From Peronospora farinosa (Eukaryota; Oomycota; Peronosporomycetes; Peronosporales; Peronosporaceae): 64,000 bases of DNA. Position numbers and translations under genes: made by a program. Positions 13,881-49,345 of this stretch are shown here, piece after piece; within the stretch, counting starts at the first letter, position 1, and the number at the start of each line of letters is the position of its first letter. Location of the stretch: the NCBI GenBank assembly GCA_947646735.1, contig CANTFK010000994.1, forward strand, positions 620,001 to 684,000, read 5' to 3'. The notes beneath the pieces are model-generated. The model saw nothing but the letters and a program-made list of their open reading frames with translations. It was not told the DNA's origin and ran no database searches.

Positions 13881-16800
13881 ATGGAAGACCAACAAACGAA
13901 GGTACGCCTCTCATCATGGCTTCCACTTTTATCAGTCAACCTCCCCCTGTCGCTTTAAGTGAATATTATGCTAATGACCCTCCCCTCTCTCTCTCTTTCC
14001 CCTCTTCTGCAACCACTAGATTTATGTACCGGATACGGGCGTGAGCTGGGTAGAGGCCTCTATCACTAAGGGCCACGTTGTAAGCGAGACCACTGTCGAG
14101 GTGATGATCGAAGGCGACTTGACTGAAGAATGCGCCGAGAAGCAGCCTGAGGCTGGTTTAATCCGTAAAATCGACGTACGTTTTGTGTAATCATCTGTTA
14201 CTTTGAAATGTACCCATTTGTACTTATATATTTTGTTTACAATATGGTTTTTTTTGAGTATAGAAATCTACAATGTTACTACAAAATACACTTGTATCTG
14301 AAGACGGATGTGCTGATATGGTGAGCCTTAATTACCTCCACGAACCAGCCATTCTATTCAATTTGAAGCATCGTTTCCTGAGACAAATCCCCTATACCTA
14401 CACTGGTGCTATTTGTATTGCCGTTAATCCTGTACGTTTTCTATCCCATTTGTTGTAACTGTTTTTTGGTCGTGTGAGTCCTACCCCTACTAATATGTGA
14501 CACCTTGTCCCTTCTTTTTTCTTCCAGTATTCCTGGCTCAATATCTATACGAAAGAACTTCAAGAACAATATCTCGACCGTGATCGGAATGAATTACCAC
14601 CACATGTTTACGCCACAAGTGCCGGAGCTTTTCAACATATGCGTTTATTTGAAGAAGATCAAAGTATTCTCGTAAGTGGTGAATCTGGCGCGGGAAAAAC
14701 TGAAACAACCAAGATTTTAATGTCTCACTTGGCATCAGCTGGTAGTCAATCCACTTCGGATGCACAAGTAAAAGAAGCAAGCATTATTGATCGTGTATTG
14801 GATGCAAATCCACTGATGGAATCTTTTGGTAATGCCAAGACATCACGTAACGACAATTCGAGTCGGTTTGGCAAATATTCGGAGCTTCAGTTTGATACCC
14901 TGGGACAGCTCATTGGGGCACGTTCCCGCACGTATTTACTTGAAAAGTCACGGGTGTCACTGCAAGGATTAGGTGAACGTAATTACCATATTTTCTACCA
15001 ATTACTAGCTGCTCCTACGGATGTGACGACGGAAGTTAAGGTTACGAACATGGAAGCCAAGGATTTTCCATTTATCAAGCCACATGAGGAAGATGTAACC
15101 AATGGAATTGATGTTAGTGCTGGTATGAAAGATGCTGAGCGTTTCCAGCAGACAGTGTCGTGTTTGGAGACCATGGGTGTGTCACAAGAGGATCAAATGA
15201 GTATTTTTAAGATTGTAGCAGCTATTTTGCACTTGTCCCGATTGCAATTCGAGCCGACACCTGATAATGATGATGCATCTCAATTGACAAGCACACCGGA
15301 GAACCAGCATGCAATTGAGCTCGTGTCGCAATTACTGGAACTTGATGACAATCAGTTGCATATTGCGCTCTGTACGCGTGAGATGACGGCCGTCATGGAA
15401 ACGTACGAGGTGCCACTGAATGTTTCACAAGCAGATGGAGCACGTACTGCTCTAGGCGTTGCTCTGTACTCGCACATGTTTTCGTGGCTGATTCACCGCG
15501 TAAACATGTCAACAAGTGCTTCGCACGCAGATGTGGCGCACAATATTTGCATCCTTGATATTTTTGGCTTTGAGATTTTTGAGAAGAACTCGTTTGAACA
15601 ATTGTGTATCAACTACGCCAATGAAAAACTTCAGCAGAAGTTCACACAGGATGTGTTTAAGTCAATCCAGCAGGAATACGAGGACGAGGGCATTCCCTGG
15701 ACTCGTATTGAGTTTGCTGACAATGTCAACGTCTTATCACTGCTTGAAGGTCGTTTTGGTGTGCTGTCGTTGCTGAATGAAGAGTGTATGCGCCCAAAGG
15801 GTAGCGATGCTGCGTTTGCTAACAAGCTGAAGGCACACTATAGCGACAACGATCGTTTCGAGTGCCCGCGTTTCGCACGCGATGCTTTCGTCATCAAGCA
15901 CTATGCCGGTCCCGTTCAGTACGACACGAACGGCTTCCTGATCAAGAATACGGATGCACTGCAGAACGACCTTATTCTTCTTATTAAGAAGTCGAAGGCA
16001 CCGTTCCTCAAGAAGCTGTTCCCTGATGAGCATGTGGGCGATGCAATGACCGGTATTCCGGGAACAAATGCGGCATTACGTGGACGGGGTCCTGGTCTCA
16101 AGCGTAAAAACTCGATTGTGGCCGACACGGTTGGCACTCAGTTTAAGAGCCAGCTGAATGGTCTTATGGAGGACATCCGTCGTACTAATGTGCACTACAT
16201 TCGTTGCATTAAGCCCAACGGCAAAAAGAGCTCGCAGGTTTTCAACAAACTGCGTGTGACGGAGCAGTTGCAGTGTGCTGGTGTCGTGGAGGCCGTCCGT
16301 ATTAGTCGAATGGCGTACCCCAACCGTGTGCAACAGACGATGTTCCTCGAACGTTTTCGCGGCGTGGCTTCTACGACGACAATCGACGGTGAGACCTCTG
16401 CGCTTTCCGTGCTCACCGCTACAGCGGACGAGAACCCAACCGATGGGGCCAAGACGGCTGCCGCCGTTCGCGAGCTGCTTGTGAACCACTTGATGCCGGG
16501 CAAGGAAAACGAGTACCAGGTTGGTAAAACACGAGTGTTCTTCCGACAGGGTGCCCTCGAGGCTCTCGAGGAATTGCGCACGCGCAGGTTCAACTCCGCC
16601 GCTGTCGTATTGCAGCGATACGCCCAGAAGTGGATGGCCATGGCGATGTTCCAAAGAGTGAAAGAGGCAGCTGTTGTGGCCCAAAAGGTGTACCGTGGCC
16701 ACCGTGCTGCAGTTCAGTACAAGAAGCAGCGCAAGGCTGCTGTCAGTGTGCAGAAGTATGTTCGTCGGCATCGTGCACAGCAGCTACTGGTGCGCATGCG

Positions 16801-18574
16801 CGAGGTGTACCGTGCTACGCAGATTCAGAATGTTTGCAAGATGTTTGTTTCTCGTCGTAAGTACCTGGTGAAGGTGAAGGCGATTCGCACGATGCAAAGC
16901 GTTGTGCGTATGTATTTGGCTACCAAGGCATTCTCAGTTCTGCAAAAGCAGGCGAAGGAAGACGCAAAATTGGAGAACCAGATCCAGTTGCTGAAGAAGC
17001 GTCTACAGCAGGAGCGTGAAGCGCGTATTGAGTTGGAGCAGCAGGCGCAATATGGCAGTCGTGCTTCCGTCCACATGCGTAGCGAGGAAGCCCTTGAGGA
17101 TGCTGACCTGGTGATTGACCAGCTTCGTCGTGAAAATGCCTCACTTAAGGAGGCCAACACGAACTTAAAAGCATTTGGAGTGCAGCTTCGCAAGGAGAAG
17201 GAAGTGATGGAGCGTGGTGCTTATGTGAACGGTGCATCCTTTGCTGCCGCCAACCAGCGTGCGATGAAGCTGCAAGACGAAAATGAGGCGCTGAAGAGCG
17301 AGCTAGCGCGTTACAAGACGGGTCACCGCAATTTGAAGGCCCAGCACGCAGGTGTGATGGAGAAGATCACGCTAATGCAAGGATCTTTGAGCGAGGCGCT
17401 GAATGAGCGTCAGGCACTGCGTCATACTGTGGATCACTTGAAGCAGCACACGGAGCACTTGCAGGGCGAGAACATGGCGTTGGCTAAGGCCAATGCACGC
17501 CTTCGTCTGATCCTTCGTCAGGACCCGGAGTTGAGCCGTAAGCACCGCGAAGAGGTTCCTCGCTTGACAAAGCTGGCGTTGTCTTCGAAGCAGTCGCAGC
17601 CTAAGGTATCAATTAGCAAGACGATTGCCGTTCCGTCCAAGGCCATTGAACTCTCGGAGCCTGATGTGAGCGCGCGCGTGTCATTGTCAACACCGCAGCC
17701 GCCTGCTCCTCCCATGGAGTCTAGTTTGGCTTCTAGCCAGCCACAGACTACTCCGATTAAGCGCGCCAACTCACTGTCTACTAAAAAATTATTCCAAGAG
17801 AGCTCCAAGTCATCGCGTAAGGTGAACATTCGTGAAATCTCGACCGCTGGCCCGGAAGAGGAACCTGCTATTATTGTATCGCCTACGGCTGAGGTGATTG
17901 GCGAGCGTCTTTCGTTTGCGGAGGTAATTAAGGGCCGGGATCGTCGTTCGTCGTCGATGTCCAGCACGGGTTCATCTTCTGGTACCCCTGCCGCAAATGC
18001 CTGTGTTGGTGCGCCTTCCAAAAGCACGGGCATTCGCCAGCCTACGGGTGAGGACGGTCCTCTCGAAGCACCAGGCAAGGTTATGGGAATTGTCGTAGAG
18101 GGTGAACCTGAGGACAGTAGCGATCGCGTGAGCTTTAGTGTGACACTGGGAGTGGACTTACTGGAGGATGCAAAGCAGCAGCAACAGCGTGTGTCAATTA
18201 CGGGTATGGCGCCTGCAACGAAACAGGCAAACATGAACGGCACAGGCAAGTCGAAGGGTCGCTCCCGTCGAAGCTCATTCGACCGCTCCGAGTCTTCGAA
18301 CAACGGCGAGAACAGACGCAACTCTTGTCTGCGGCAGTCGATAACAGGTAACGTCGAAAACGGCCGCACCCGTCGTGGCTCGTATGACCGCACCGAAAAC
18401 GGTGGCAGTGATGCCATGAGGAATTCCTCGCTTCGGCAGTCGCTCACGGGTGGCAATCGCGGCCGTGCTCGCCGTGGGTCATACGATCGCAACACTAGTT
18501 ACAAGAGTCGCCAAACTAGCGATACAGTGAGCAACTCGAGTACCGGCAGCGGTGGTAAGCGCATTGAGCTTTAA
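13881..18574 (+). CDS. Unconventional myosin heavy chain
   Basis: Actin-based motor. Four exons fit GT-AG sites in phase: 13881-13901, 14020-14175, 14264-14431 and 14528-18574, giving about 1463 residues. The start MEDQQTK is a small first exon; exon 2 encodes an SH3-like N-terminal region (VSWVEASITKGHVV). The motor has the P-loop GESGAGKTE (~166), switch II DIFGFEIF (~459) and the actin-interface region ending ~795. About six IQ motifs (~805-915) should bind calmodulin-type light chains. A coiled coil (~925-1110) follows. The tail is long, Ser/Thr-rich and basic, with repeated RR.S.DR and LRQS units near 1355-1445. I see no globular cargo domain. The exact myosin class cannot be given without a tree. 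It runs tail-to-tail with cactin. Confidence 0.95.
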
Positions 18575-18919: not shown

Positions 18920-20626
18920 CTACCGACGATACCTGTGGCGTTTGAAGTTGAAATAAAGGTGCAAGATTCCACGCTCGAATACGCTCTTGAACCCGCGTTT
19001 AGCAGAGTGTTCCCACTCGCGGTTAACGATCTTGAATGCGATGTCTTGGTACGGTGGTCCTGCGGAAAAGCGAATAATGCAGAACTCATCCGAGTTGGCC
19101 TTCTCCAAGAAGAAGCGTGGGGCCGTGTGCTTGTCGATGAGGTCGGGGTAAAAGAGGTTGAACTTGTAGCCCTGTACGACCTTCGGTGGAGGATTGTCGT
19201 GGTCATAGTGCGTCTGGTTGTACTTGTTCCAGTCGTAGCCGGTCTTGACACGATTGAAGTAGCGCGGCTTGCGTGGCTGGTACTTTTCACTCCAGCGTGG
19301 AGCTGCTTTCGAGTCAGCAAGTACTACCTCTTCAGAGGCATCAAGTCGCTCTTCTTCTTCGTCAAGACCCTTACGAGCAAATGATTTCTCCATCTCAACC
19401 GCCTCACGTCCAGCATCACATCCATTTTCATCCACAAGACCGTGCATCTCGTGTTCAGGAACACGAGCGGCTGCTTCCTCAGCCGCGCGTCTTTCGTGCT
19501 CTTCCATAAGGTCTGCCAATTTCTCAAGCATTTCTTCATGCAATTGCGTGAGTCGTGCACGAGCTTGATACACTTGAACTTGCTGTGCCACTTCTTCCCA
19601 AAAGTCTACATCCACTCCTGTTGCTCCTTTTGATACACTAGCAATTGTCTCTTTGACTTGATCGTGTAATTCCTGCAATCCATCGGTAGTTTTCCCCTCT
19701 AGCATTCCTGTAATTGTTTCATTTACAGCATCATGAATTGCTCCTCTCTCGGCTCGTCCTTCACTCTGCAACCGTTTTAACCGTCGAATTCGATCATTAC
19801 ACACAAGTGTCATTAATTGCCAAAATTCAGCATTATGTCCTCCATTTCCACTTTCTTCCAATTCTTGATACATCTGCACATCCTCCTGTAATCCCACTAA
19901 CTCTTCCAGCGATAAAACCTCTAGAATAGCATAAGGTCGACGATGTTCGACTCGAATGTGCCCAATTTCTTTTTTGAAAAACTCATCCTTTTCGTCCTTG
20001 TCGTCTGTTTTTGCCGATACCAGTAGCAAATTTTTCGCCAGTAAATCTACCGGTTTTTCACGGTTTGCCCGAATCCGTAACTGGCTTCGAACTTTGGTCT
20101 GTTTTAAGTGAAATTCTTCTTCTTTTTGTTGCCAATCGTCATATTGTTCGGCATCTTTTAACCGTAATTCTTCGCTCTGAAGACGTTCCAATTCTTCCTT
20201 TTCGGCTTCACGTTCATCACGACGTTTCCGAGCTTTACGAATCTCATCGATACGTCGAATTTGAGCCTTTTTGATTTCTTTCTCCGATGGAGGTTTATTA
20301 GTGCCTTGAGCCTCGTACTTTTTACCCCATACAAATGGTTGGCTGAGACTCGAGTCTCCAAATGGGTTCGTTTCGTCCGAATAGCCCAAACTTGCCAGCA
20401 TTTTTGCGGATTTTTTACGTGATTTACGCTCTGCACGAACTTCAGAGTCACTGTCCGAGTTGGAGTAATTACGGTTGCGCTTGGTGTGCTTTTTCTTGCT
20501 CTTGGGATGCTTGCGACGCGAGCTCAGATCGGGCTCGGAACGACCCATTTTTAAAGAGGTTTTGAGGACTTTGTCAGTGGAACGACATTGGTGCGACATG
20601 ATAGGTGCTTCGGTACATGTTCTCAT
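18920..20626 (-). CDS. CACTIN: Cactin (spliceosome-associated protein)
   Basis: Single-exon frame of 568 codons starting at an ATG (MRTCTEAPIMSHQ). The N-terminus is lysine/arginine/serine-rich (~25-80). A long charged helical middle follows (~100-400), as in the cactin mid domain. The last ~120 residues are the conserved C-terminal domain: EKYQPRKPRYFNRV, GYDWNKYNQTHYDHDNPPPK, GYKFNLFYPDLID, then FSAGPPYQDIAFKI, ending in FKRHRYRR. Known cactins act in the nucleus in pre-mRNA splicing; in animals they also touch NF-kB/IkB signalling, which does not apply here. It is shorter than the human protein, mostly at the N-terminus. It faces the ATG1-like gene across ~190 bases. Confidence 0.95.
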   Translation of the reverse strand: MRTCTEAPIMSHQCRSTDKVLKTSLKMGRSEPDLSSRRKHPKSKKKHTKRNRNYSNSDSDSEVRAERKSRKKSAKMLASLGYSDETNPFGDSSLSQPFVWGKKYEAQGTNKPPSEKEIKKAQIRRIDEIRKARKRRDEREAEKEELERLQSEELRLKDAEQYDDWQQKEEEFHLKQTKVRSQLRIRANREKPVDLLAKNLLLVSAKTDDKDEKDEFFKKEIGHIRVEHRRPYAILEVLSLEELVGLQEDVQMYQELEESGNGGHNAEFWQLMTLVCNDRIRRLKRLQSEGRAERGAIHDAVNETITGMLEGKTTDGLQELHDQVKETIASVSKGATGVDVDFWEEVAQQVQVYQARARLTQLHEEMLEKLADLMEEHERRAAEEAAARVPEHEMHGLVDENGCDAGREAVEMEKSFARKGLDEEEERLDASEEVVLADSKAAPRWSEKYQPRKPRYFNRVKTGYDWNKYNQTHYDHDNPPPKVVQGYKFNLFYPDLIDKHTAPRFFLEKANSDEFCIIRFSAGPPYQDIAFKIVNREWEHSAKRGFKSVFERGILHLYFNFKRHRYRR

Positions 20627-20818: not shown

Positions 20819-23688
20819 CTACGTTCTCTTGGGGTTTGCAACTGTGACAACATGAAATCGAGTTCCATACGGTAGACGATACGGGTTAAAATCCTAGTAA
20901 AAAGACAGTAGACGTTAGTGTGAAACAGCTACAAGGAAAACCAAAGAGACGAGAATAATCGACAAATGACATACCTCAATCGCATGAAAAGTATCAATGA
21001 AAATGATCTCACCACAAATGTAAGCGGGTGGTGTTCGATCACTGCCCACACCCAAAATCGCTGCCTGGATCGACTCGTTTGCTAGATAATAGTGTGGAGC
21101 TCCCTCGTTAAAAGCCACATACGGTAGTTTTCCCCCCTTCAGGAAAAACAACGCCAATGAACTGATTTGAAAGCTACGGAATGATATCCGCTGATGCTCG
21201 ATTGGGCCATGAGTGGCTTCTACAGACGGCAATTCACCAACAGTTTCGCTTTCTTCGGCATCACTTGCCACTGTACGACCAGTCAGGACCTGGGAGAGCG
21301 GTAGCTCATCTGATACGGACGAATTATTCGCGGTCCCAATGCTGCCGTTTGCATCATGAGATGACGTTGCTAAAGGTGTTACCGATACCACGTGATACTT
21401 GGTTCCTTCACGAAGGCAAAACGGGTTCAATTTCTGTACAAAAAGTATGACAACAATAAACAATCACGTTGGTGTCAAACCAAGGAAACAGCAGGATCAG
21501 CCTTACATCCGTAGTTTCATGGTCTTCGATGTAGATGATGTGTCCAAGAACATACGGAGGGTTTCTAGGACAATCAACAAGTGAATTCATGCGTGCACGA
21601 TCAACGAGTCTCATGCGATAAAGCTGAACATACCTGTCGTCTTTCTTAGATGCTGCAATAGATTCGTCCGACAAATAGTAGTGAGGGCATCCTTCGTGGA
21701 ATGCGATGTAATCGCCAAAAGGTGTAGGTACGAAGAGTGCCACGCTACCACATGAGAAACTCTTATAGCAAATACCCAGCAATTCCTCGAGACGGTTATC
21801 GTCGGTCACCCACTGACGGCGCTCGCCAACCAACCAATTATCATTCTTAGCTGCAGGGATTACTTCGCGTACCGGCATTTTAGTATCCTCGTCGATCTCA
21901 ATCGACACCGGCGCTATCACGGATTCAGGTGTCCTGTTTCGGGGAGATGACGTATCGACCACGATATCCCTAATCTCAACGCTTCCATCCACTATGGCGG
22001 TGTCTGCATCGGCGTCTGGTGCATGCTCTTTCGTGTGGTGTTGCACCTGTGTTGTCAGTAAAACAATGCCAACAAGAATGTTAGTATTTCTGTCTTGAGA
22101 TTCTTAACGAGTTTGCTGCGTTGCAATGCTACCTTTTCATCTAGATTCACGTTCAGATCCTGACCGTCAAGAACCTTCCGACCAACGTCCTCATACTCAT
22201 TCTCCACCATCACGTATTCGTCGCTACAGGTCGCCCAGTCCTCTGCAAACATGCCCAGATAAGGCAGTCCTGTTAACAACGCTAAAGAATCGATTCGAGG
22301 TTTCTAACAACGTACCGTATTCGGGCTGGTTTCCGGCAACAAGTGGTTGCTTTGTCTCGGAGCTGTCCAAATCTGCAGTATCTGTGTCTGCATCAGCATC
22401 TGCCGGAACTGGTGGTAACAAGAATGGCGCGCGGAAGAAGTCATCAAACGACATTCGCTTGCGCGGATCGACCCGCAACAGCGCTTCCACAAACTGTTCA
22501 CACTCGGGAGATACTGTGACCTTTTTCGGAAGTCGAACGTGGCCATAATGCTCAAAGTATCGATAGATGTTCCGCCGCAGTGCCAAGTGGTTAGTCGCGT
22601 GGCATTTGTTCACCACAAGAAACGGGTGTTCGTTAGCAATCATCTCGTACAAGATGATGCCAACTGACCACAAATCTGCTTTAGCATCATAACCCTTGTA
22701 CTCCAGTAGCTCCGGCGCCATGTATAGCGGCGAGCCCACAACACTCTCAGCCATCATCTCGGACTCCAACTCTCGCGCAAAACCAAAGTCCGCTGTACGA
22801 GTACCAGGACTATCAGCAAGACATATCATCATATCCACATTGCTACCCAACTCACCAATTTTTAACTTGGCCGTTGCCATGTTTCGTGACGAAAGCAGCA
22901 AGTTGGCAGGTTTCAAATCACGATGCACCACATTCTGCGAGCGAAGAAACTGCAACCCCGACGCTACAAACAAACAATAAAACATCAATCTCTCTTATTG
23001 CAATCGCAAGCCGACGTTTTTCACCTACACGTACCTAATTGCGACATATACAGCCGAGCCTGCTCCTCCACCAGTCCGTTGTTTAACTTCATCAGTTGTG
23101 CAATATCTCCACCAGCACAATATTCCTACAACACAATAAAATGCACGTTTAATCAGCACAACACTCTGTCTTCTCTTCTCTCTTCTCTTCTCATCTCTCT
23201 CTCATCTCTCCAAACCTGCACGATAAAAATGTGATGCTGTGACTCTTTGGTGCACAGCAGCCGTACAATATGTGGGTGACCATTTTCAAATTGCTCCACA
23301 GCTACGCGCATGGTCTCAATTTCTTTTTCAATGCTTTGACGTTCATGTGGCCGTCGTAATTTGTCCTTCCCAATCATTTTGACGGCTACAGCTGCTCCAG
23401 ACGACAAATTGATGGCCTTGTGGACCTACAAACACCGAAAAAACGTATAGAAAATCAGTGTCTTTGCGACTAATGTATCCAATTGCTCTTGATCGTCGTA
23501 CGGTGCCGTAGGAGCCTCGTCCAATCGTTTCGACCAAGCTGCACCAACAAGATCGTCATTTATAGCAAGATTTAGTGTTAAGGAAGGCGTTTTTGAGCTA
23601 GATTTCAACGAGAAAGAGATGAAAGTTGTCTCATGTACCGAAAAACATTGCCACATACGGTGATCGTCTGTCCATTGGCGCTACTCAT
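20819..23688 (-). CDS. ATG1: ATG1/ULK-type autophagy kinase fused to two FIP200/ATG11 Claw-like domains
   Basis: Eleven exons in consistent phase: 23688-23639, 23538-23502, 23425-23216, 23125-23035, 22963-22856, 22792-22316, 22269-22109, 22046-21634, 21564-21507, 21433-20975, 20893-20819; about 712 residues. Kinase domain ~17-290: IGRGSYGTVHKA, AVKMI, EYCAGGDIAQL, HRDLKPANLLL, ADFGFAR, GSPLYMAPELL. These are ULK/ATG1-like. Exon 7 contains SDEYVMVENE (~341-350), equal in place and form to the ULK1 LC3-interacting motif. Instead of the usual ATG1 C-terminal MIT-type domain there are two similar ~85-residue blocks (~468-553 and ~620-708). Each has Y.AF.EG.PHYYL..ESI, a PPY..G.I..I segment and NP..L..GT..HVV, the pattern of the FIP200/ATG11 C-terminal Claw. 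The kinase assignment is firm and the Claw assignment is pattern-based. The donor after exon 7 (GTTAAG) is weak. Confidence 0.88.
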
Positions 23689-32273: not shown

Positions 32274-33659
32274 CTAGCATGAATTAGCTTTCTGAAATTC
32301 TTCCCATGCATTGTTAAGGGCTGCAAAAACGCGCTCTGCGATCAGCAACTGCTCCGCGCTGCGTCCACCGGATTTGTCTGGATGTACGACGATCATGGCC
32401 TTGCGGTAATACTTTTTCACATCGTTGGGCTGAATGAGCTTGCCCATGTTCACCTCGGACCATTTACAGTCTTCCCACATGACCTGGTGCATTGTAGACA
32501 ACAGCGTGCGGATGTTCTTCACCCGACCATTATCTTCCGCCCAACCCTTCAATCTCGGGCCAATTACAGCGTTTGCATTATCTTTCATGGCAGTCATATT
32601 GCGCACGGCTTCTTCACGCGTGCGCAAATCTTCACGAGCCCGTTCCACATCACGTTGCACCTGCCGCTCACGCTCTTCCATTGCACGACGTACGCCTTCG
32701 CTCTTTGTCGACTTATCCACTAGATTCGGATTGTACACGTTAGATCCGTCCGACGTAGACTTGGAGTGGGCCTCCATCTCCGCCATGGTAACGGGACCTA
32801 TAGTCTGTCCGTTATCGTCGTCAAACTTAGGCGGATCTTTGTATACAGCCTCGGAAGGTGAAACTTGCGCAGCCGGCACAGTACGAGCCGCCAATGGGTC
32901 CATTGCGTTCAGAAAATTGGAGTTGGCATGAAGCGTAGCTGGTGCGTCAGTCCAACCGCTATCACTCATTAGATTCACATCTTTCTTGTGTGTCTGTTGA
33001 CTGTTGCCTGACAAAAAATCTTCAAGATTTCCTTGAGCTGGAGTCACCGTCTTGGATCCTAATCGTATTGACTTTTTCTCTCCAGATGTAGAAGAAGCAC
33101 GACTTGATGCATTACTATGCCGATTCTCTGCTCCATTACCACGTTCTGATGCTCGATCCGAGTACTTGAGCGGTCGACCCTGCTCGAACGCCGGGAAGGA
33201 CGACGATCGATGAAACTTGCTGCTTTCCAATGGCTGCATAGTCTTTACCGACTGCAAACTGCTCGAACTATTACCAAGTCCACTAGAATTGCCCTGACGT
33301 TTAGGTGGTTGGCTACCACTTGCCCACTTGAGCACAGGTCGACGTCGGAAAACCAGACCGGGTTTCGATGGCCGTTCAAGTCGTAGGAGCTTACAGATGA
33401 CACGACCACCGACCAGTGGCACCTTCTGCAATGGCTGCGTCACGTCCAGCCAATAAAACGTATTGTTTTTACTGTTATTAAGTCGAAATCGGAAGTGAAA
33501 AGCCGCTGGATTGTGCAGCGGAAAGCATCGCAACACATCCGCAAGTGTCACGTCAGTGCCTGGGGAGACGTCCGCTAGTCGAAAAGCGTTTGGATGCGCA
33601 CGATCTTCTCCATCTTCACCCTGTAGATAGTAAAAAGCCCAGATACCGTTCTCCATCAT
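32274..33659 (-). CDS. N-terminal DIX-like domain plus C-terminal auxilin-type J domain
   Basis: Intronless, 461 residues from the ATG at 33659. Residues ~3-95 look like a DIX domain: WAFYYL near the start, VTLADVLRCFPL, FHFRFRL, a WLDVT strand, then VPLVGGRVICKLL. DIX domains polymerise head to tail in Dishevelled, Axin and plant SOSEKI proteins. The middle is Ser/Asn-rich and disordered, then a charged coiled coil (~290-355). Residues ~375-461 are a J domain of the auxilin/GAK kind: MWEDCKW, DVKKYYRKAMIVVHPDK with the HPD motif, LIAERVFAALNNAWEEF. Auxilin J domains recruit Hsc70 to uncoat clathrin vesicles. The J call is firm; the DIX call is by eye. I infer a polymer-forming Hsp70 cochaperone. 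Confidence 0.85.
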   Translation of the reverse strand: MMENGIWAFYYLQGEDGEDRAHPNAFRLADVSPGTDVTLADVLRCFPLHNPAAFHFRFRLNNSKNNTFYWLDVTQPLQKVPLVGGRVICKLLRLERPSKPGLVFRRRPVLKWASGSQPPKRQGNSSGLGNSSSSLQSVKTMQPLESSKFHRSSSFPAFEQGRPLKYSDRASERGNGAENRHSNASSRASSTSGEKKSIRLGSKTVTPAQGNLEDFLSGNSQQTHKKDVNLMSDSGWTDAPATLHANSNFLNAMDPLAARTVPAAQVSPSEAVYKDPPKFDDDNGQTIGPVTMAEMEAHSKSTSDGSNVYNPNLVDKSTKSEGVRRAMEERERQVQRDVERAREDLRTREEAVRNMTAMKDNANAVIGPRLKGWAEDNGRVKNIRTLLSTMHQVMWEDCKWSEVNMGKLIQPNDVKKYYRKAMIVVHPDKSGGRSAEQLLIAERVFAALNNAWEEFQKANSC

Positions 33660-34401
33660 CACGATTGTAGAATTTCAATACCTGATGTTGTTGATGCAAG
33701 AATGAAACGAAAACTTGGAGAGAGTTCCTCTCACCTTTGGAGAGACTTGTGACGTTGCTTAGAATATTATTTGCGTGGTAGGGATGGTGTGGTCTACACC
33801 AGCTCCAAAAAATAGCTTCAACATGTAGCCATTTCTGAACTGTATACGTAACAAGTACCTGTTTGAGCAACTATAGTTTAACCTAATCTTTAGTAGCAAT
33901 TGATGGCGACAAGTGTTTCAAGCTAAAATACTTGAGAACGTTCTTATGGAGGTCCATATTGACTTCACGCGGGTAGATCTTTTGTCTCCATAATCGATAT
34001 ACCAGCTGATTAAATAACTGACATGACAGGAGCCGCGTCGTTAAGGCAGATACGACAAGTCAAAACGACCCATTGACCAATACCAAAATTACATGTACAC
34101 GGTCATTGGAGCGTTGACATCACGAATGTCGATTTACAATTCCTTGAACCCTTGAAGAAGTAAGAAACATTCATACAATCAAAACCCATTTGAGATCGTA
34201 CACATGTCCTTCCTTTATGTTTGCCACCAAAACCACAAAAGAGCGAGCGCAACATACTCAATTCAAATTAGTTGTCTCCCCTAAACCCAATACGAGTCCA
34301 CGCTTTTGCCTCTCATTTCTCGATCGACGGGCTCTGTTATACCTGAAATTAGATAGTGTAACCCTTTAGAAATTCACGTAGGGAATTTCTATAGTACAAC
34401 A
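33660..34401. other. Intergenic, divergent promoters of DIX-J and first TKL kinase
   Basis: An 84-codon minus-strand frame (33616-33870) overlaps the DIX-J start but has no family features. Otherwise no gene is seen. Confidence 0.5.
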
Positions 34402-35979
34402 ATGTTTCAACTTAAAAGTGTAGGGAACCTTTTCCTTGTTCTACCTTTGATCATTATGCGCCCTACTGCTGTTACTGCAGTAGATACAACGTCAACAAGC
34501 GGTGATTCTACTGTCATTTTCATTGTCATCTTCGTGATCGTCGGGTTGGCCTGCATTATCGCCTTTTTTGTTTGGAAACGTCAACAGAATCGCAAACGTC
34601 CGAAGGAACGATGTTATAATCTTCCGTCCACTACTGTGCGTTCTGGCATCAGTCATGGGACTTTAAACGATAACGATCGACGGATGAACTCTCCATACGG
34701 TAAACATTCAAGGGACAAGAAAACAGGACGCTCTGAGTCCCATCACTCGAGGACAGAACGTCCTCCTCAGCGGCCAGCTAATGGAGCACCGACTCACACC
34801 CGACAGCAACAACAAAAGCCTCAGTACCAGCACCAACCTCAGTACGAACACCAGCATCAACATCAACACCATCCTCAGTACCAACCTCCGTACCAGAATC
34901 ACTATGAGCCGGGGGATTCATTTCCACCACCGCCTCCACCTCCCCCTGAGATCCCAATGTTAGAGCCAGACGAGGATCAAGGACCTGGTCTTTTGATGGT
35001 GGAGCTCCAGCAGAGCCAAATGAAGTTCAGTATGGAAGAATTACAGGGTAGACGAACGGACCCGGCAGTAATCGCACGCACACAAGAGACAGTAAGAAAG
35101 GTACTAGCGGAGCTGGCAAGAGATCCTGAATTTGAAGAAAGCTGGATTCCGTACGACTCGCTCTACTTTACACGTGCAATCTCAAAAGGTGCTTTCGGAG
35201 AGGTGTGGCTAGCCCAGCTGGAAAACACTCAGGTGGCCGTCAAGAAAATTTTGGATGAAAAAAGGCACGACGTGAAGGAGATTGAGTGTTTTGGAGAGGA
35301 AATCAAGCTTCTGGCTTTGTTCAAGCACCCGAAGATTGTCGGGTTTATTGGTGTCTCATGGAGTGACAAGCAGGATCTGTGTGCAGTAACAGAGTACATG
35401 GCCAAGGGCGATTTGTACGACTACTTGAAGCGTCGCAAGGGCAAGTTGAACTGGCCCGACCATAAGATGTGGTTGGCCAGGGACATTGCCGAAGCTCTGG
35501 TGTACCTTCACTCGCTGTCACCAAAAATCATTCATCGTGATCTCAAGTCGAAGAACATTCTACTAGACAACAAGTACCGTGCAAAGCTGAGCGACTTTGG
35601 CATTAGCCGGAAGCGCTCTGCAGAGGAGACAATGACGGCAGGCGTTGGCACTATCTATTGGACTGCTCCTGAGGTACTCATGGGCAAGAAGTACACCGAG
35701 AAGGCTGATATATACTCTTTCGGCATTGTCATGGCAGAAATGGACACGTGCGAAGAGCCGTACTCGGACAAGCGTGATAGTGCTGGTAAGGAGCTCCAGA
35801 GTATGAAAATCATTCAATTGGTGATTCGCCAGGGCCTCCGACCGTCGTTCTTAGAGGATTGCCCGAAGCAAGTTAAGGCGCTTGCCGGCCGCTGTTTGGA
35901 CGCTAATCCGGACAAACGTCCATCGGCACCGGAGCTGCTCAATATTCTGCATAATATTCAGGATGATATGCAGCATTAA
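34402..35979 (+). CDS. Membrane-anchored TKL-family protein kinase
   Basis: Intronless, 525 codons. A signal-peptide-like start (~1-27) is followed by ~12 outside residues and one membrane span (~38-58, STVIFIVIFVIVGLACIIAFFVWK) with a basic stop-transfer KRQQNRKRPK. A Gln/His/Pro-rich linker (~130-185) includes a run of eight prolines. The kinase domain is ~250-520: SKGAFGEVWLA (first glycine of the loop replaced by Ser), VAVKKIL, HRDLKSKNILL, SDFGISR, GVGTIYWTAPEVLMGKKYTEKADIYSFGI. This is the oomycete tyrosine-kinase-like group, likely with Ser/Thr activity. With almost no ectodomain, it is unlikely to bind large ligands alone. Its neighbour at 36541 is a close paralogue. Confidence 0.92.
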   Translation: MFQLKSVGNLFLVLPLIIMRPTAVTAVDTTSTSGDSTVIFIVIFVIVGLACIIAFFVWKRQQNRKRPKERCYNLPSTTVRSGISHGTLNDNDRRMNSPYGKHSRDKKTGRSESHHSRTERPPQRPANGAPTHTRQQQQKPQYQHQPQYEHQHQHQHHPQYQPPYQNHYEPGDSFPPPPPPPPEIPMLEPDEDQGPGLLMVELQQSQMKFSMEELQGRRTDPAVIARTQETVRKVLAELARDPEFEESWIPYDSLYFTRAISKGAFGEVWLAQLENTQVAVKKILDEKRHDVKEIECFGEEIKLLALFKHPKIVGFIGVSWSDKQDLCAVTEYMAKGDLYDYLKRRKGKLNWPDHKMWLARDIAEALVYLHSLSPKIIHRDLKSKNILLDNKYRAKLSDFGISRKRSAEETMTAGVGTIYWTAPEVLMGKKYTEKADIYSFGIVMAEMDTCEEPYSDKRDSAGKELQSMKIIQLVIRQGLRPSFLEDCPKQVKALAGRCLDANPDKRPSAPELLNILHNIQDDMQH

Positions 35980-36540
35980 AACGCATTGGGATGCGTAATT
36001 GCGCGCCAAGAGCAAGAAGGAGGCCATTGTTAGAATGATGATGGCTCTTACTTGTCTACGGCTATTTAAGTTTTTGCAGGTAGTACAGTATATAGATTCA
36101 GATTCACACGAGAGCTGTTTATTTTGTCACTGGATTTTTTATTAATATCAATTTGTCTTTAAAGAATAGTCGTCATGAGCATAATACCAGTGGTATTGTA
36201 TGTTTGTGACAGGGGATAAATATCGACATACTGACCAGTTTTTTACAAGTAACCGGTTTTGGAGTGGTAGTACTAGCTCTTTCACTACCTACACGAGGGG
36301 TTACGGTATATCATGTGAGATCATAATACCTGGTCATATAAACTCCTCCTATTTATCAATTACTACAGGTTTGTATGCATTCGACTGGCCTACTACGATA
36401 AGCAAGCACAATTAATTGTCACAAATTATAATTGTTTGCAATCCATTTTACGCGAAAAGTAGTCAGTGCACATCTGTGTAGCAGTCAAAGTAGTCTGTCA
36501 TTCGAGCATCAGATCGGTTGAGTCTATTGCCATAGGACCG
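35980..36540. other. Spacer between the paralogous TKL kinases
   Basis: No coding signature. A plus-strand frame 36200-36415 lacks family features. If the second kinase has an N-terminal membrane exon like its neighbour it should lie here, but I could not find a signal peptide. Confidence 0.5.
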
Positions 36541-38082
36541 ATGACGGGCTTAGTAGCCTTCCTCACGTGTGGCGCCTGCGCAAGTCGTCGCAAACGCGGT
36601 CATCAGAACTTTGCCGAAACAATTACGATCCCTACGGCCTCTGGGCAGCCGCATCACGCCGCGTTGGCGCACCATCACGGGTACGACGTTGACGGGATGG
36701 TGGAATTAGGGGGAGATCGTCATACTCATGGAAATGGTCATCACAGTGGACGACGTGAGCGACGACCATCTAATCCCCGACCGCGAGTGTCAAGTGACCC
36801 TAACAGAGTGTCAAGTGGCCCTACCAGAGTGTCGAGTGGACCTGACAGAGTGTCGAGCGGTCCGAACAGAATGTCGCACGGCGCTCCGCGTAGAATGTCG
36901 AGTGGTTCAGATAGAGTGTCGAATGGCTCAGATAGAATGTTAAGTGGGCCTGATAGAGTGTCAAGTGGGCCTGATAGAATGACGAGTGGTGCACAACCCC
37001 AGCGACCGCGAAATGGGTCGCGACCACAGATGTACCAACCACAGCATCCAGAGCAAAGGCATGCACATCCTCAGCAACAATTACATGATCGCCTTGCTAT
37101 ACACGGCAGTCTTGAACTGGTATCAAAACCACAGAGTGGAGGCTCGGGCAACTCGGCCAATGACCGTGACTTGGAGATCACGGACAAGTCTCGAGAAGTG
37201 GCCAATCGAGTACTTGAACAGTTCCAGGCAGACCCGACACTTAGTAGAAGTCGTATCCCATACTCTTCGCTCTATTTTACTCGAATACTGAGTAAAGGGG
37301 CCTTTGGTGAAGTGTGGCTTGCTCAATTGGAAAACCGACAAGTGGCTGTCAAGAGAATTTTGAACGAAAAGAAGAACGATGTAAGGGAGATTGAGTGTTT
37401 TGGAGCAGAGATTAAACTCATGGCTTCCTTCTCACACCCTAAAATTGTTGAGTTTGTGGGCATATCCTGGAGTTCTATGCAAGATGTGTGTGCTGTGACG
37501 GAGTACATGGGCAAAGGTGACCTGCATGGCTTCCTTAAACGCCGACAGGGCCAATTGAACTGGCGTGACCACAAGATTTTTCTTTCAGAAGATGTAGCCG
37601 ATGCACTTGGATACTTGCACGGTTTGTCACCTAAAGTGATCCATCGTGATCTCAAGTCGAAGAATATTCTTTTGGATGACTCGTTCCGTGCAAAGCTCAG
37701 TGATTTTGGAATCAGTCGAGAACGAGCTGTAGAAGATACGATGACGGCAGGGGTGGGCACAATATACTGGACAGCACCCGAGGTGCTTATGGGCAAAAAG
37801 TACACGGAAAAGGCCGATATCTTCTCCTTTGGTATTGTCTTGTCGGAGCTGGATACGCATGCGGTGCCGTACTCAGACAAGCGTGACAGATCAGGCAAGA
37901 AACTACAGAGCATGAAGATCGTGCAGATGGTGATCCGAAGAAACATGAGGCCGACGTTCTCACCGGAATGCCCGGCTCTTGTGAAGGAGCTGGTGGACCG
38001 TTGTCTCGACTCGGATCCGGACGTACGACCTAGCGCTATGGAGCTACTGCGGATCATTCAGCGCATGCAGAACCTATTGTAA
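36541..38082 (+). CDS. TKL-family protein kinase, tandem paralogue with RxxS heptad repeats
   Basis: 513 codons from the ATG at 36541 (MTGLVAFLTCGACASRRKRG). The open frame extends upstream without an ATG. The short hydrophobic start plus Cys and basic residues looks like the remains of the neighbour's membrane span, or a lipid-anchored end. Residues ~82-152 are ten tandem ~7-residue units of the form R(V/M)SSGPD (36780-36995, period 21 nt), each an RxxS phosphosite candidate. Kinase domain ~240-510: SKGAFGEVWLA, VAVKRIL, HRDLKSKNILL, SDFGISR, TIYWTAPEVLMGKKYTEKADIFSFGI, very close to 34402-35979. The pair arose by local duplication; the linkers have diverged completely. Confidence 0.9.
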   Translation: MTGLVAFLTCGACASRRKRGHQNFAETITIPTASGQPHHAALAHHHGYDVDGMVELGGDRHTHGNGHHSGRRERRPSNPRPRVSSDPNRVSSGPTRVSSGPDRVSSGPNRMSHGAPRRMSSGSDRVSNGSDRMLSGPDRVSSGPDRMTSGAQPQRPRNGSRPQMYQPQHPEQRHAHPQQQLHDRLAIHGSLELVSKPQSGGSGNSANDRDLEITDKSREVANRVLEQFQADPTLSRSRIPYSSLYFTRILSKGAFGEVWLAQLENRQVAVKRILNEKKNDVREIECFGAEIKLMASFSHPKIVEFVGISWSSMQDVCAVTEYMGKGDLHGFLKRRQGQLNWRDHKIFLSEDVADALGYLHGLSPKVIHRDLKSKNILLDDSFRAKLSDFGISRERAVEDTMTAGVGTIYWTAPEVLMGKKYTEKADIFSFGIVLSELDTHAVPYSDKRDRSGKKLQSMKIVQMVIRRNMRPTFSPECPALVKELVDRCLDSDPDVRPSAMELLRIIQRMQNLL

Positions 38083-42720: not shown

Positions 42721-44004
42721 ATGACGCCTCCCGGCAGTGAGTCACAGACTCTTAGGGACCTTATTGAGGACGACCTTGAAGAAGCGGTTGATTACGAAAG
42801 TGACACCGTCTTTGTGGGACCCGATGGGTCCCCTTTAGCCACCCTCACGGGTGAAGATGACACTCGTCATGCACCGAATCCGTTCCCTGAACGTGGTGCA
42901 GCAGATGCGCTAACAGCGTTACGTGATCCGCCTGAGGTATCATCAACGGTAATGGTTACCAACCCACTCGACGAGCAGCAACAGCGGTCCATCGACCAAG
43001 AGGAAGGCGCCAAGCGCCGAACGAAGAACATGACGCGGCTGAAGGATCACCGACAGTACAGGTTCAAGCCACCTACGGTGGAAGAACGCCTAAAGGAAGC
43101 ATCTGGGCATTCCCTTTCTGGTTGGACCATTGGGCCTGAGGCCATTTCGCCTGAGGATGTTGCCACACGCACGGCACTTCGACAACGATATCTGGAGCCC
43201 CATATCACTACTCAAAGCCAATACTTGGCACGCCTTAATAGGCAAGTGCGCGGTGCGCCAGTTCCTCCGATGAAGGGTGTTCCCATCCTTCTGTTCCCGG
43301 GGGAAACCGAGAACGAAGAAGACACGGCTTTCAGCCGCTGGGCGCATTATGCGCGACGTTTAAGCAGCATGTGGGCCCTACGGGCAAGCGCCGATGTGGC
43401 AGATGTTCGACTTGAGCGGAAGATGCGTTATGATTACGCTAAATTGAAGGCCCGGGGAAAGTTGAAATCCCAACGAACGCATTATGCGCCTGCTGCCCAG
43501 CAGCCCAATGTTTCGGCTACCCCTGTAGCCGCGAGTTCACGACAGCCCGAGGCCGCTAACCCGCCTACCCTCACCCTTACTGGTGAGAAGCGTCAGCGCC
43601 AACAGGCAGACCCTGCGCACGACGCTCAAAAACGTCCACGGCGTATGGGCAGTCCTGCCGAAGGGGAGTCTCAAACTCCCATGAATTACATGATTCGGGA
43701 TAACCCCGCCATTTTACCAGATACTGGTTTTGACCATGGCGGCGCCGCTTCTGCAGTAGACGTTCCACATGGAACTGCAGGTTCCCCTGAGCATCGAGCA
43801 AAGGAGGAGGAGGCCGATGTATCGGCACAAGCTCATGCCGAGCTTGTTCAGGAGGTGCGGACCCTTCGTGAGGAGAGGCAGACGATGAACTCCCGGCTTG
43901 CGTCCCTGGAAGAGAGTCGGACCCGAATGCAGGGTCAACTTGACTTGTTGGTGCAGATGCTCCGTCCCGCGACAATGCCAATGGGCCCGGCGCGAGCGCC
44001 TTAG
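42721..44004 (+). CDS. F1 antisense ORF (aORF), intact, unknown function
   Basis: 427 residues from the ATG at 42721, on the strand opposite to gag-pol, starting ~110 bases inside the 3' LTR and ending inside the pol chromodomain/integrase end (overlap 43577-44004). N-terminal ~100 residues are acidic (TLRDLIEDDLEEAVDYESD). A middle region has EDTAFSRWAHYARRLSSMWALR (~205). A Pro/Ala/Gln-rich part follows, then a C-terminal coiled coil ([16 protein letters not shown], ~375-410). Decayed homologues occur at 759-1935 (F1) and in F2, F3 and F4. No known family is recognised. Overlap with pol alone could keep it partly open, but two thirds lies outside pol. Confidence 0.75.
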   Translation: MTPPGSESQTLRDLIEDDLEEAVDYESDTVFVGPDGSPLATLTGEDDTRHAPNPFPERGAADALTALRDPPEVSSTVMVTNPLDEQQQRSIDQEEGAKRRTKNMTRLKDHRQYRFKPPTVEERLKEASGHSLSGWTIGPEAISPEDVATRTALRQRYLEPHITTQSQYLARLNRQVRGAPVPPMKGVPILLFPGETENEEDTAFSRWAHYARRLSSMWALRASADVADVRLERKMRYDYAKLKARGKLKSQRTHYAPAAQQPNVSATPVAASSRQPEAANPPTLTLTGEKRQRQQADPAHDAQKRPRRMGSPAEGESQTPMNYMIRDNPAILPDTGFDHGGAASAVDVPHGTAGSPEHRAKEEEADVSAQAHAELVQEVRTLREERQTMNSRLASLEESRTRMQGQLDLLVQMLRPATMPMGPARAP

Positions 44005-45184
44005 CGTCTATTTGGGACGGATCCCGATAAGGTTTCAACATGGCGACATAGAACACAGGATGTGTACGCAATTTGCGCGGCAAGTTAAGCGTATACGCTG
44101 TGACTTTCTTGGCAATGACCTTAAAGGGTCCGATAAATCGTGGGCGCAACTTCGTCTTAAAGACAGCGGATACTACATTGGTAGGTAGGTTTTTAGCATT
44201 AAGTAATACTTGGTCTCCGACCTCATAATCATTAATACAACCTCTGCCTTTCGCATCTGCATATTCCTTTTGTTTATCTTGACTATCAGCCAGTGCATCT
44301 TGCACATGTCGTAAGACATTCAGTCGCGTTGCGAGAAACGCATTTACCTGTTTCTTAACAGTATTAGGGCTGACATCAGCAAGCCGATCGGCAACCTCTC
44401 CCCCACCAAGCCCTGAACCACTCGGTGGTAGCGTTAACGGAACGCGTGGGTGTGTGAGACCATTGACATAGAACGGAGTGTAGCCGGTGGAGGCGTGCAC
44501 GGAATTATTGAGTGCAAACTCAACTACAGGGAGCATAGAGCTCCAACGCTTAGGCGTTTCAGCACAAACGCTGCGTAGGATATCTTCAACAACGCGATTT
44601 ACGCGTTCGGTTTGACCATCGGTCTGCGGATGATCCGCCGTGGACATGTCCAAACGGGTGCCCAGCACCTGGAAGACGGACTTCCAAAATTTACTCGTAA
44701 AACGAGGATCACGATCAGAAACAATTGCCACTGGCAAGCCATGTTGGCGAAACACCCGATCGATAAACAGCTCCGCTGTACCCACACCATCGATCGAATC
44801 TGGCACAGCCGCTAAGTGAGCCATCTTACTCAAACGGTCAACAAAGACCACAATACCTGTATTGCCATGCGAATCTTTCGGTAGGCCAAATACAAAGTCC
44901 ATACTAATGGACTCCCAGCACCCAGTGGGAATAGGCAAACTAGCCAGCGGCGCTGCCGAATGGGGCGAGGGTTTCACCCGCTGACACATTTCACACGTAC
45001 GCACATATGTGCTCACCCATTTATATAGTTTGGGCCACCAATAACTTTGGCATACTGCCCCATAGGTCTTTTCACGACCCAAATGACCACCGATGGCGGT
45101 GTCATGTACCTCATACAGGATACGATACTTCAGGTCCTTATCATGAGAAACCGCAATACGCGGAGGATGGCCACATATGTACAA
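43577..45184 (-). CDS. F1 integrase with chromodomain (pol C-terminal part)
   Basis: A 535-codon open frame. The N-terminal zinc-binding HHCC region has [15 protein letters not shown] and [10 protein letters not shown]. The core has [33 protein letters not shown] and [12 protein letters not shown], giving the D,D,E residues. The C-terminal domain has [12 protein letters not shown] and RTHPVFYV. A Pro-rich linker leads to a chromodomain ([24 protein letters not shown]) that should steer insertion to modified chromatin. Its frame differs from the upstream RT frame, and the two overlap at 45130-45184. Because no ATG starts it, it is expected as part of a polyprotein. Confidence 0.9.
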
Positions 45185-48100
45185 TAGTACAACAGCCTCT
45201 GATCGATAGAATATCGATGGAGGCTTGCACGCAATCGTGCCGACAATTTAATGTCCGAGTCTTTAAACTCCTCACTGCCAAGAGCATGTAGCAACGCTAT
45301 ACAGTGATCATCTTTAGCATACGCCGAACGAATGAGATCGGTGATAGAAGACGACAACATCGTCACATGAGCAAGCTCATAATCAGGTCTGCGTGACAAC
45401 GCATCAGCCAAAGCATTTTGCTTGCCCGGCTTATATTTCACCTCGAAGTTATATTCGGCAAAGAATGACAGCCATCTGGCCATTCTCTGCGAGAGATGCG
45501 GCGATTGAGTCGCAGTGCGTAACGACGCATGATCGGTATAGATCACAAAAGGCTTGGAGCCCAGCAGATGAACTCTGAATTTGACCAGGGCATACTTCAT
45601 CGCAAGTAGCTCTTTGTCGTGAACTGGATAGTTCTTTTCTGCAGCTTTCAGCTGGCGGGATTCAAAAGCGATTACACGCTCACGGCCTTCATCATCTGAT
45701 TGTAACAGAGCACTGCCAATGGCAAAATCCGATGCGTCACAGACGACGCTAAACGGTCGGTCAGGGTCTGGCAAAGCCAAAATAGGAGCATGTAGAAGGC
45801 TTGCCTTCACTGCTTGAAAAGCATTTTCGTGTTCGGCATGCCAACACCATTCCACATCCTTTTTAAGGAGATTGGATAACGGCCGAGCCATATCAGCGTA
45901 ATTCTCGCTATACTTGTGTAAGTAATTGGCAAGGCCAAGCCATTTACGCAAGTCCTTCTGAGACTGTGGAACAGGCCAATCGACTATGGCTTTGACTTTG
46001 GCGGGATCCGCTCGTAGTCCCCGCTTCCCAATGAAGCACCCTAGAAAGGGAATTTCTTCGGCCCCGAAGATGCACTTAGATGCATTAGCATATAATTTAT
46101 TAGTGCGCATGCACTCGAGCACTGCTCGTAAATGAACAATATGGTTCTCAATATCTGACCGACTATGTTCAGCTCGGCTATGGACAAAAATGTCATCAAA
46201 ATACGTCTGTGCATAACTTCGATGGGGTCGAAACAATTGCGTCACCAAACGGTTAAACGTAGCCGGAGCATTAGATAGCCCTTGGGGCATCACTAACCAC
46301 TCCCAGAGAATACCGCTCGGAGTACTAACAGCAGTAAGCGGAATATCGCCAGCTCGCATGAGCAATTGGTAATAACCATCGACTAAGTCGAGCGCACTGT
46401 ACATGGTACAACCGACCATATTGTTCTGAAGAACATCCTTTCTGGGTATCGGTGTCTGAGCAGGTATGGTGGCCGCATTGAGCTTATTATAAGCATGAAC
46501 AATACGCCATTTACCATTTGGTTTCTTGACACAGAAAGTGGGTGTCGAGTGCGGAGATTTACTTTCACGCACCATGCCCGCCGCGTGCTTTGCACGAAAG
46601 AACTCGTCAATGACGTCACACTGTTCTTTGGGTAAAGGCCACTGCCGTGTTACACAGTATTTGGTTCCGGGAACCAAGTCAATTTCATGACGTACGCCCC
46701 TATCAGGTGGTAGAACCGACGGTGGATCGTGACACACCACGTCCTGGAATTCTTTTACCAAAGGATAGTAGGGATCTGAAGGTTCCTTTAGAATAGATGC
46801 CCCACTACGTGCACTTAGTGCCGCTTTGGTATCTTCAAGGACTGTCTCATCGACAAGCGAGGATGAGTTCAGCTCGAGGTTAGGTCGAATGACCACCATA
46901 TCGGACAGAGCACCTGCCTTCAAGGCCTGATGAAATTCATCCACAGACATTTCGTCTAGCTCTAAAAGAGCATTTAATGATGGGAGGGCCTCAAGGTCAA
47001 CCTCACCATTTACATCACCTGTCACTCCGTTGACCAGGGTGTACAACTGGTCACTGACATTACTATGCGATAAAACAGACGCTTTGCGCCTCGCAGCCGC
47101 CATCTGGCGACGCTGCCGTCTCCTTGACGAGACCGTACTCTTCAAAGTACTTGGGATGTTATCGTCCCCAAGGTCAACAGACCCCTTGTCGTTTACCTGC
47201 CCTATGTAAAGGCCGATGTCATTACCGACACCCAATGGGTCACTAGTACCAGTGACTTCACTAACAAGGTCATTGACCTTCACTCGCTCTATACGAGAGC
47301 CGGTGTCATTACCGACACCCAGTGGGTCACTAGTACCAGTGACTTCACTAACAAGGTCATTGACCTTCACTCGCTCTATACGAGAGCCGATGTCATCACC
47401 GACATCCAGTGAATCGCATTTCCAGCCAATATCACTAACAAGGTCATCGACCTTAACTTGCTCAATACGAGAGCCGATGTCATTATCGACATCCAGTGAA
47501 TCGCATTTACAGCCAATATCACTAACAAGGTCATCGACCTTAACTTGCTCTATACGAGAGCCGATGTCATTACCGACATCCAGTGAATCGCATTTACAGC
47601 CAATATCACTAACAGTATCACTTAACGGAGTACGTGCCGTTCCACTAAGTGTCATTGAGCTCTGCTCGACACTATTATTGTTGACATCAGAGTTTATCAA
47701 CTCAGACACTCCAATGTCCAGCACATTAACTGAATCAGTTAATGGCTCGCGCCAATAGCACTTTTGTTTTCTAGCGAAGGTGGGTTCATGACTCTCCAAA
47801 GCCTCGCTAGGAACATTGCGCGTTGCGCCTAAAGTTTTGGATCTCCAATCGATCCACGGCTCATGGCGTTCCAGCCAGGCCATACCGAGAATGAGATCAT
47901 ATCTCGAGTCCAAATCTAGGACAAGACAGCGTTCAACGCTATTGAAATCTAAAAATTTCACACCTAAGTTCAACGGAACTTTAGGAACGGTGACACGTAC
48001 ACCAGTCGCGAGACGTACGGTTATACTGTCACCCTCTTGCGCTTCCAGCGCCTCAGCATACAGCTGACTCCCCTCAAGGGAGCGACGTCGGACATAGTTC

Positions 48101-48296
48101 CCTGACGCCCCTGAGTCAATTAAAATTGACCAGGGTTTCTCAAAACCCTTAACGGTTGCCGACACAACCAACAAGCCTGGCTTGTAATTTTGTTCTATGG
48201 GAGCATCCACAGAACCACCTGGGGCTAAGCCCTGTTTACCTTTACCTCCTAAAGATTCAACAGAACTTAGTTCTTTCCCAGTAGGGCGCCCCGCGC
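45130..48296 (-). CDS. F1 protease, spacer, reverse transcriptase and RNase H
   Basis: Open frame lying -1 relative to gag. I could trace it open across the gag stop, so a -1 frameshift may join gag and pol. Order: retropepsin ([29 protein letters not shown]), a variable spacer with ~29-residue tandem repeats (47216-47650), RT ([37 protein letters not shown], where Phe replaces the common Leu/Ile before DD), RNase H ([36 protein letters not shown]). It copies the RNA genome into DNA. The frame ends at 45130 in a sequence that continues as integrase in another frame. Confidence 0.9.
47216..47650 (-). repeat. Tandem ~87-nt repeats in the F1 pol spacer
   Basis: About five in-frame units, each encoding ~29 residues around [18 protein letters not shown]. 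Two sub-types alternate in blocks (one with IGCKCDSLD, one with VTGTSDPLG). Unit length is a multiple of three, so copy-number change keeps the pol frame. Confidence 0.85.
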
Positions 48297-49298: not shown

Positions 49299-49345
49299 TC
49301 TCACAGAGGGTCAGTCTTTAAAGACTCAGGTGTAGGATTGACTAC

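Follow-up and report, generated by a model that had tools for sequence, protein, structure and literature searches.

A 64-kb window of the Peronospora farinosa genome (64,000 nucleotides of contig CANTFK010000994.1) carries a minus-strand gene, at 23688-20819, in which an ATG1/ULK-type protein kinase domain, an Atg8-interacting motif (AIM, or LC3-interacting region, LIR) and two Claw domains of the FIP200/ATG11 type are fused. Judged from its sequence and those of its relatives, this gene, oomycete ATG1a, is a real, conserved, old and functional-looking fusion. Its 11 exons, separated by 10 GT-AG introns, gave a single open frame, as had been proposed in an earlier note made from the DNA letters of the window, and the proposed model was borne out apart from one splice site. 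In that first model, intron 6 was 46 bp long (end at 22270), which added 9 residues to the protein; because these residues were present in none of the 28 aligned relatives, the end of the intron was moved to 22243. Intron 6 thus runs from 22315 to 22243 (73 bp), which gives a protein of 695 residues; 7 of these 695 positions differ in the Peronospora effusa protein P0001. The Pfam scan reported below was made on the uncorrected model of 704 residues. The features of the gene are as follows.

20819..23688, minus strand: ATG1a-type kinase-Claw-Claw gene; 11 exons, 695 residues, 7/695 differences from P. effusa P0001
22419..23640, minus strand: protein kinase domain, residues 17-290, exons 1-6 including introns; Pfam Pkinase E 3.6e-67, PDB matches ULK3/ULK1/ULK2
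22243..22315, minus strand: intron 6, 73 bp after correction; nine extra residues in 0/28 relatives of alignment A1
22205..22225, minus strand: putative AIM/LIR SDEYVMV, residues 331-337, exon 7; pattern in 41/41 relatives
21365..21770, minus strand: Claw 1, residues 454-541, exons 8-10; PF10377 E 2.3e-16, modelled relative P0034 matches the FIP200 Claw
20837..21199, minus strand: predicted Claw 2, residues 597-690, exons 10-11; PF10377 E 6.1e-16, FIP200 in PDB E 1.6e-5

The earlier note had taken the arrangement to be new. However, a 2017 study of Phytophthora sojae (PMC5431975, Sci Rep; statements on this and the other cited papers refer to their accessible parts) already states that an Atg11 domain replaces DUF3543 in oomycete Atg1a, and it reports higher expression of PsAtg1a in infection stages. 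P. sojae Atg1a likewise pairs a kinase with an Atg11 domain at the place of the DUF3543 of canonical Atg1 and is evidently this gene's counterpart in a related genus, an orthology that we infer from the description in that paper. Thus, the arrangement is in print, whereas the second Claw, the AIM, the ligand pocket and the mechanism are not mentioned in the accessible parts of PMC5431975. The Phytophthora infestans kinome counts two ULK kinases, and the word Atg11 is absent from its accessible text (PMC3019232); the main text of a paper on oomycete domain fusions (PMC2705460) contains none of the terms looked for, and no fusion is mentioned in the accessible parts of a review of algal autophagy (PMC11449223). 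In a literature search that left subscription papers and bioRxiv largely uncovered, PMC5431975 was the only description of the fusion found among the top matches listed, and we found no study of its mechanism and no title or abstract on tandem Claws.

Kinase domain, AIM and Claws

The Pfam match identified a protein kinase, and its ULK-type assignment was confirmed by the top PDB matches (ULK3, ULK1 and ULK2) and by its place in a tree. The HRD and DFG aspartates were intact in all 24 rows of alignment A2, which holds 24 of the 41 relatives after removal of fragmentary models (including P0003 and P0029, which lack the HRD stretch), and K45 was present in at least 90%; the conserved catalytic residues argue for an active rather than merely blocking kinase. 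A tree built from 35 kinase domains united the fusion kinases and the metagenomic protein P0051 in one clade (support, 100/97) within the ATG1/ULK family; five further kinases of this genome fell elsewhere. Clade tests, chosen once a first tree was known, did not reject a tree with the canonical oomycete ATG1 (ATG1b) as sister of the fusion kinases, although it was not the best tree: approximately unbiased (AU) test p values were 0.053 when P0051 was included and 0.127 when P0051 and a long insect row were left out. A recent oomycete duplication of ATG1b is not favored as the origin of the fusion kinase. Kinship with ULK3, at which the best PDB score had hinted, was rejected (p 0.010) in a set that included the long insect row.

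As the earlier note had it, the usual ATG1 C-terminal domain is absent: the Pfam scan gave no match to an ATG1-like MIT domain (PF12063/PF21127) at E≤0.1, and at the same threshold no ATG17-like region (PF04108) was found in the fusion protein. The MIT domains are the part through which ATG1 binds ATG13. Compared with canonical ATG1, ULK1 and ULK2, the fusion shares the kinase family, the activation-segment motif and the AIM/LIR pattern but lacks the MIT tandem, with two Claws in its place.

The pattern of the LC3-interacting type proposed for SDEYVMV (residues 331-337) was likewise confirmed by sequence, and a putative AIM/LIR, placed after the kinase in the fusion protein, was kept throughout the 41 relatives, P0034 and P0051 among them. 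In 28 sequences, conservation was 87-93% for the three 8-residue blocks surrounding the motif and 20-77% for the other 16 blocks of the linker (residues 294-445). The motif resembles the ULK1 LIR TDDFVMVPA (PMC5538626) and the plant ATG1a AIM REYVLV (PMC8666691).

The two Claw-type repeats described in the earlier note were also recovered. PF10377 (ATG11) matched twice, and each repeat alone scored well above the cut-off of 22 bits (60.5 and 59.1 bits). The C-terminal 277 residues matched eight distinct FIP200 (RB1CC1) PDB sequences, all through the second repeat and with a best E value of 1.6e-5. For Claw 1, FIP200 Claw structures came top of a fold search with the predicted structure of the relative P0034, far above all else; that model had a mean predicted local distance difference test score (pLDDT) of 48 and a predicted template modelling score (pTM) of 0.29 and was confident only around Claw 1. 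The fusion Claws thus share the predicted fold and the hydrophobic pocket positions of the FIP200/ATG11 Claw (PDB 6DCE, 6GMA and 7CZM), but they stand in tandem on a kinase without an ATG17-like region, and K1569, R1573 and R1584 of FIP200 are replaced. Similarity to the Claw of the genome's own ATG11 was 45% and 44% for Claws 1 and 2, respectively, and 43% between the two. In a Claw tree bearing on whether the two Claws could have arisen by duplication one from the other, which carried long-branch warnings and had 5 of its 27 inner branches starred, the Claw 1 sequences, including P0051, formed one group with 35% bootstrap and the Claw 2 sequences one group with 93%.

Distribution and the canonical autophagy set

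The relatives considered here are 41 proteins (P0001-P0039, P0041 and P0051); P0040 and P0042 were dropped because they have no kinase. Kinase and both Claws were present in 34 of the 41, several of them partial gene models. The exceptions were P0034, which lacks the kinase; P0035, without a Claw 1 match; P0037, P0038, P0039 and P0041, without Claw 2; and P0051, in which the oomycete profiles found only Claw 2 while Pfam found two ATG11 stretches. Deposited names hint at both halves of the protein, P0003 being called "ULK/ULK protein kinase" and P0007 "Autophagy-related protein 11." The search for the same fusion in other oomycete genomes that the earlier note had suggested yielded named organisms from four orders (Peronosporales, Pythiales, Albuginales and Saprolegniales). 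Its occurrence in Saprolegniomycetes as well as in Peronosporomycetes dates the fusion to their split or earlier. P0051 is a divergent metagenomic protein with the same order of parts, and its kinase groups with those of the oomycete fusions; so divergent a protein suggests an origin of the fusion before the oomycetes or its presence outside them.

Among named organisms, the first Claw-directed search returned oomycetes and one plant ATG11 (P0042), and the second returned a subset of the first; P0040 is a non-kinase ATG11. No fusion was found in named non-oomycetes by the two Claw searches or among the best 120 of 4625 kinase matches, searches that were not exhaustive. P0051 was missed by both Claw-directed searches and was found by the kinase search (among the best 120 of 4625), and rarity outside the oomycetes is for this reason not established. 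A scan of viral contigs gave no relative of P0051.

The fusion is not the only ATG1 of this genome. A canonical ATG1 on contig C40 has MIT2 and an AIM-like EEYVLV and no Claw. A direct scan of its open frame placed MIT2 above the cut-off and MIT1 only below it, and a six-frame search found the genome's sole MIT2 match in this gene. The six-frame search with PF12063 gave no match in the genome and none in the control genomes either, and is hence uninformative alone. Of the three places with a six-frame match to PF10377, the fusion gene holds two; the third is a separate ATG11 on contig C5, which has an ATG17-like region and one Claw. The question of a separate FIP200/ATG11 scaffold, posed by the earlier note, is thus answered: one is present in addition to canonical ATG1. 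ATG13 and ATG101 genes also were found. Because the genome keeps canonical ATG1, a separate ATG11, ATG13 and ATG101, the fusion is an additional kinase.

Two further observations concern this set. The Claw of the separate ATG11 (L021, G000:C5:264500-270000) likewise lacks the FIP200 basic residues. The genome has two FW-domain loci, and at one of them (L028, 2911-3765; FW match G000:C5:421692-421985) lies a gene with an NBR1-type FW domain in which, by eye, PB1-like and UBA-like parts and an AIM-resembling FFETI stretch can be seen, making it a candidate Claw ligand.

Proposed role of ATG1a

We favor, at a probability of roughly 0.55, a reading in which ATG1a, as a second ATG1 kinase, uses its own Claws to dock on motifs like the FIP200-interacting region (FIR) and its AIM to hold Atg8. 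Because the ATG13-binding part of ATG1 is missing, ATG1a would have no ATG13-based place in the canonical complex. Docking would instead be direct and would fall to the Claws, above all to Claw 2, whose hydrophobic pocket is conserved; the ligands would be short, hydrophobic FIR-like stretches of cargo receptors or of core autophagy proteins. The AIM would then keep the kinase on membrane coated with Atg8. With its two Claws, a single chain may gain avidity or a built-in dimer, bivalent binding being possible, and cargo recognition and kinase activity would be coupled in one protein.

The ligand pocket bears on this reading in both directions. FIP200 binds receptor motifs through a hydrophobic pocket (C1565, A1567, F1574, V1576 and F1582) and the basic residues K1569, R1573 and R1584 (PMC7946963, PMC6477179). 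We counted these positions in 12 sequences per Claw, namely, the window protein and 11 of the 41 relatives, with P0051 excluded. In Claw 2, the hydrophobic positions were F, A, Y, L and F, respectively, in 12/12 sequences. Several points weigh against the proposed role. The pocket of Claw 1 was less regular, with H, Y, F or A at position 1565 and T, S or A at position 1567, and the Claw 1 of P0051 was barely recognizable. Claw 2 is assigned from sequence alone, and the placing of the two Claws, including a possible pseudo-dimer of the two, would have to be taken from a full-length model with a pLDDT of <50 for residues 294-695, which was used for no fold search. Finally, the phosphate-binding residues of FIP200 are lost in the fusion Claws: in the window protein, K1569 is replaced by D/E, R1573 by P and R1584 by V. 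The R1573 position was P in all 12 sequences of both Claws, the R1584 position was V in all Claw 2 sequences and V or I in all Claw 1 sequences, and the K1569 position was E in all Claw 2 sequences and D, E, T or N in 11 of the 12 Claw 1 sequences, the remaining one (Albugo) having K.

With these residues lost, the best-known route of receptor binding is unavailable, and the FIP200-like reading of phosphorylated receptor motifs put forward in the earlier note is not supported for either window Claw. The two arginine positions are likewise P and V in the genome's own ATG11, in P0040 and in one plant ATG11, so that, within these few sequences, P/V appears to be what non-animal Claws usually have. 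K1569 and R1573 are reportedly missing from yeast Atg11 as well, yet its binding of Atg19 rises after phosphorylation (PMC7946963/PMC6477179), which leaves phospho-reading by the fusion Claws possible; from their sequences, it is not established.

Built-in dimerization, in which the tandem Claws would mainly pair kinase domains for activation and cargo binding would be secondary, is in our judgment rather unlikely. In Schizosaccharomyces pombe, Atg11 serves chiefly to dimerize Atg1 (PMC7511232), and FIP200 Claws are dimers (PMC6477179). However, a 62-residue region of S. pombe Atg11 (522-583, with its own homodimerization part at 546-583) suffices (PMC7511232), so the dimerizing part there is not the C-terminal Claw. 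An internal switch, in which the AIM would bind the protein's own Claw and block Atg8 binding, and perhaps kinase output, until displaced by a receptor or Atg8, has a small chance of being correct. Claw ligands are proposed to share a core that starts with an acidic residue, followed by a bulky or aromatic residue, two residues of any kind and then L, I or V (PMC7946963). Such an internal contact is conceivable because E333-Y-V-M-V337 fits this core and the relatives' motifs do too (P0051 having G in the acidic position), and in p62 the binding of the Claw and of LC3B is mutually exclusive (PMC6477179). Against it, the rim that is basic in FIP200 and attracts acidic flanks is acidic here (the K1569 position being E throughout Claw 2), and canonical ATG1b has a similar AIM pattern without any Claw. 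It is improbable that ATG1a acts as a competitor that takes the same receptor motifs as ATG11 and so tunes or diverts the canonical complex; each window Claw resembles the Claw of the separate ATG11 as closely as it does the other window Claw, but the conserved catalytic residues would favor an active role over mere blocking. A wrong joining of two adjacent genes is hardly credible: deposited models P0007, P0022 and P0024 of other species look merged with their neighbors, but the order kinase, AIM, Claw, Claw recurs in 34/41 relatives from many separate annotations and in the metagenomic P0051, in keeping with the single gene of the earlier note.

A bolder form of the proposed role, which we hold only tentatively and consider doubtful, is an old, self-contained initiation kinase that would combine docking, Atg8 holding and activity in one chain, with an AIM-Claw switch, and would serve a branch of selective autophagy independent of ATG11 and ATG13.

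Neighboring genes and wider meaning

Directly downstream of the kinase gene lies a Cactin gene (Cactin_mid and CactinC_cactus; window 18920-20626, minus strand). A long open reading frame (ORF) at 14639-18574 (plus strand) has a myosin motor domain and an IQ motif. At 32274-33662 (minus strand), one ORF has DIX-like (E 3.4e-4) and DnaJ-like (E 2.7e-4) matches at opposite ends, both below the cut-off, a pair that would be odd if real. Two adjacent protein kinase genes (34402-35979 and 36466-38082, plus strand) have the kinase domain in the C-terminal half, and a Ty3-type retrotransposon at 43577-49304 (minus strand) has three ORFs, encoding gag; protease, reverse transcriptase and RNase H; and integrase with a chromodomain.

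Having been found across oomycetes and in no named non-oomycete by searches that were not exhaustive, the fusion protein may mark oomycetes. The replacement of the arginines in the plant ATG11, in P0040 and in the genome's own ATG11 suggests that FIP200-type phospho-reading may not be general to Claws. Additionally, a natural Claw-bearing kinase would offer a direct test of whether recruiting ATG1 to cargo and dimerizing it is all that a receptor-binding scaffold does.
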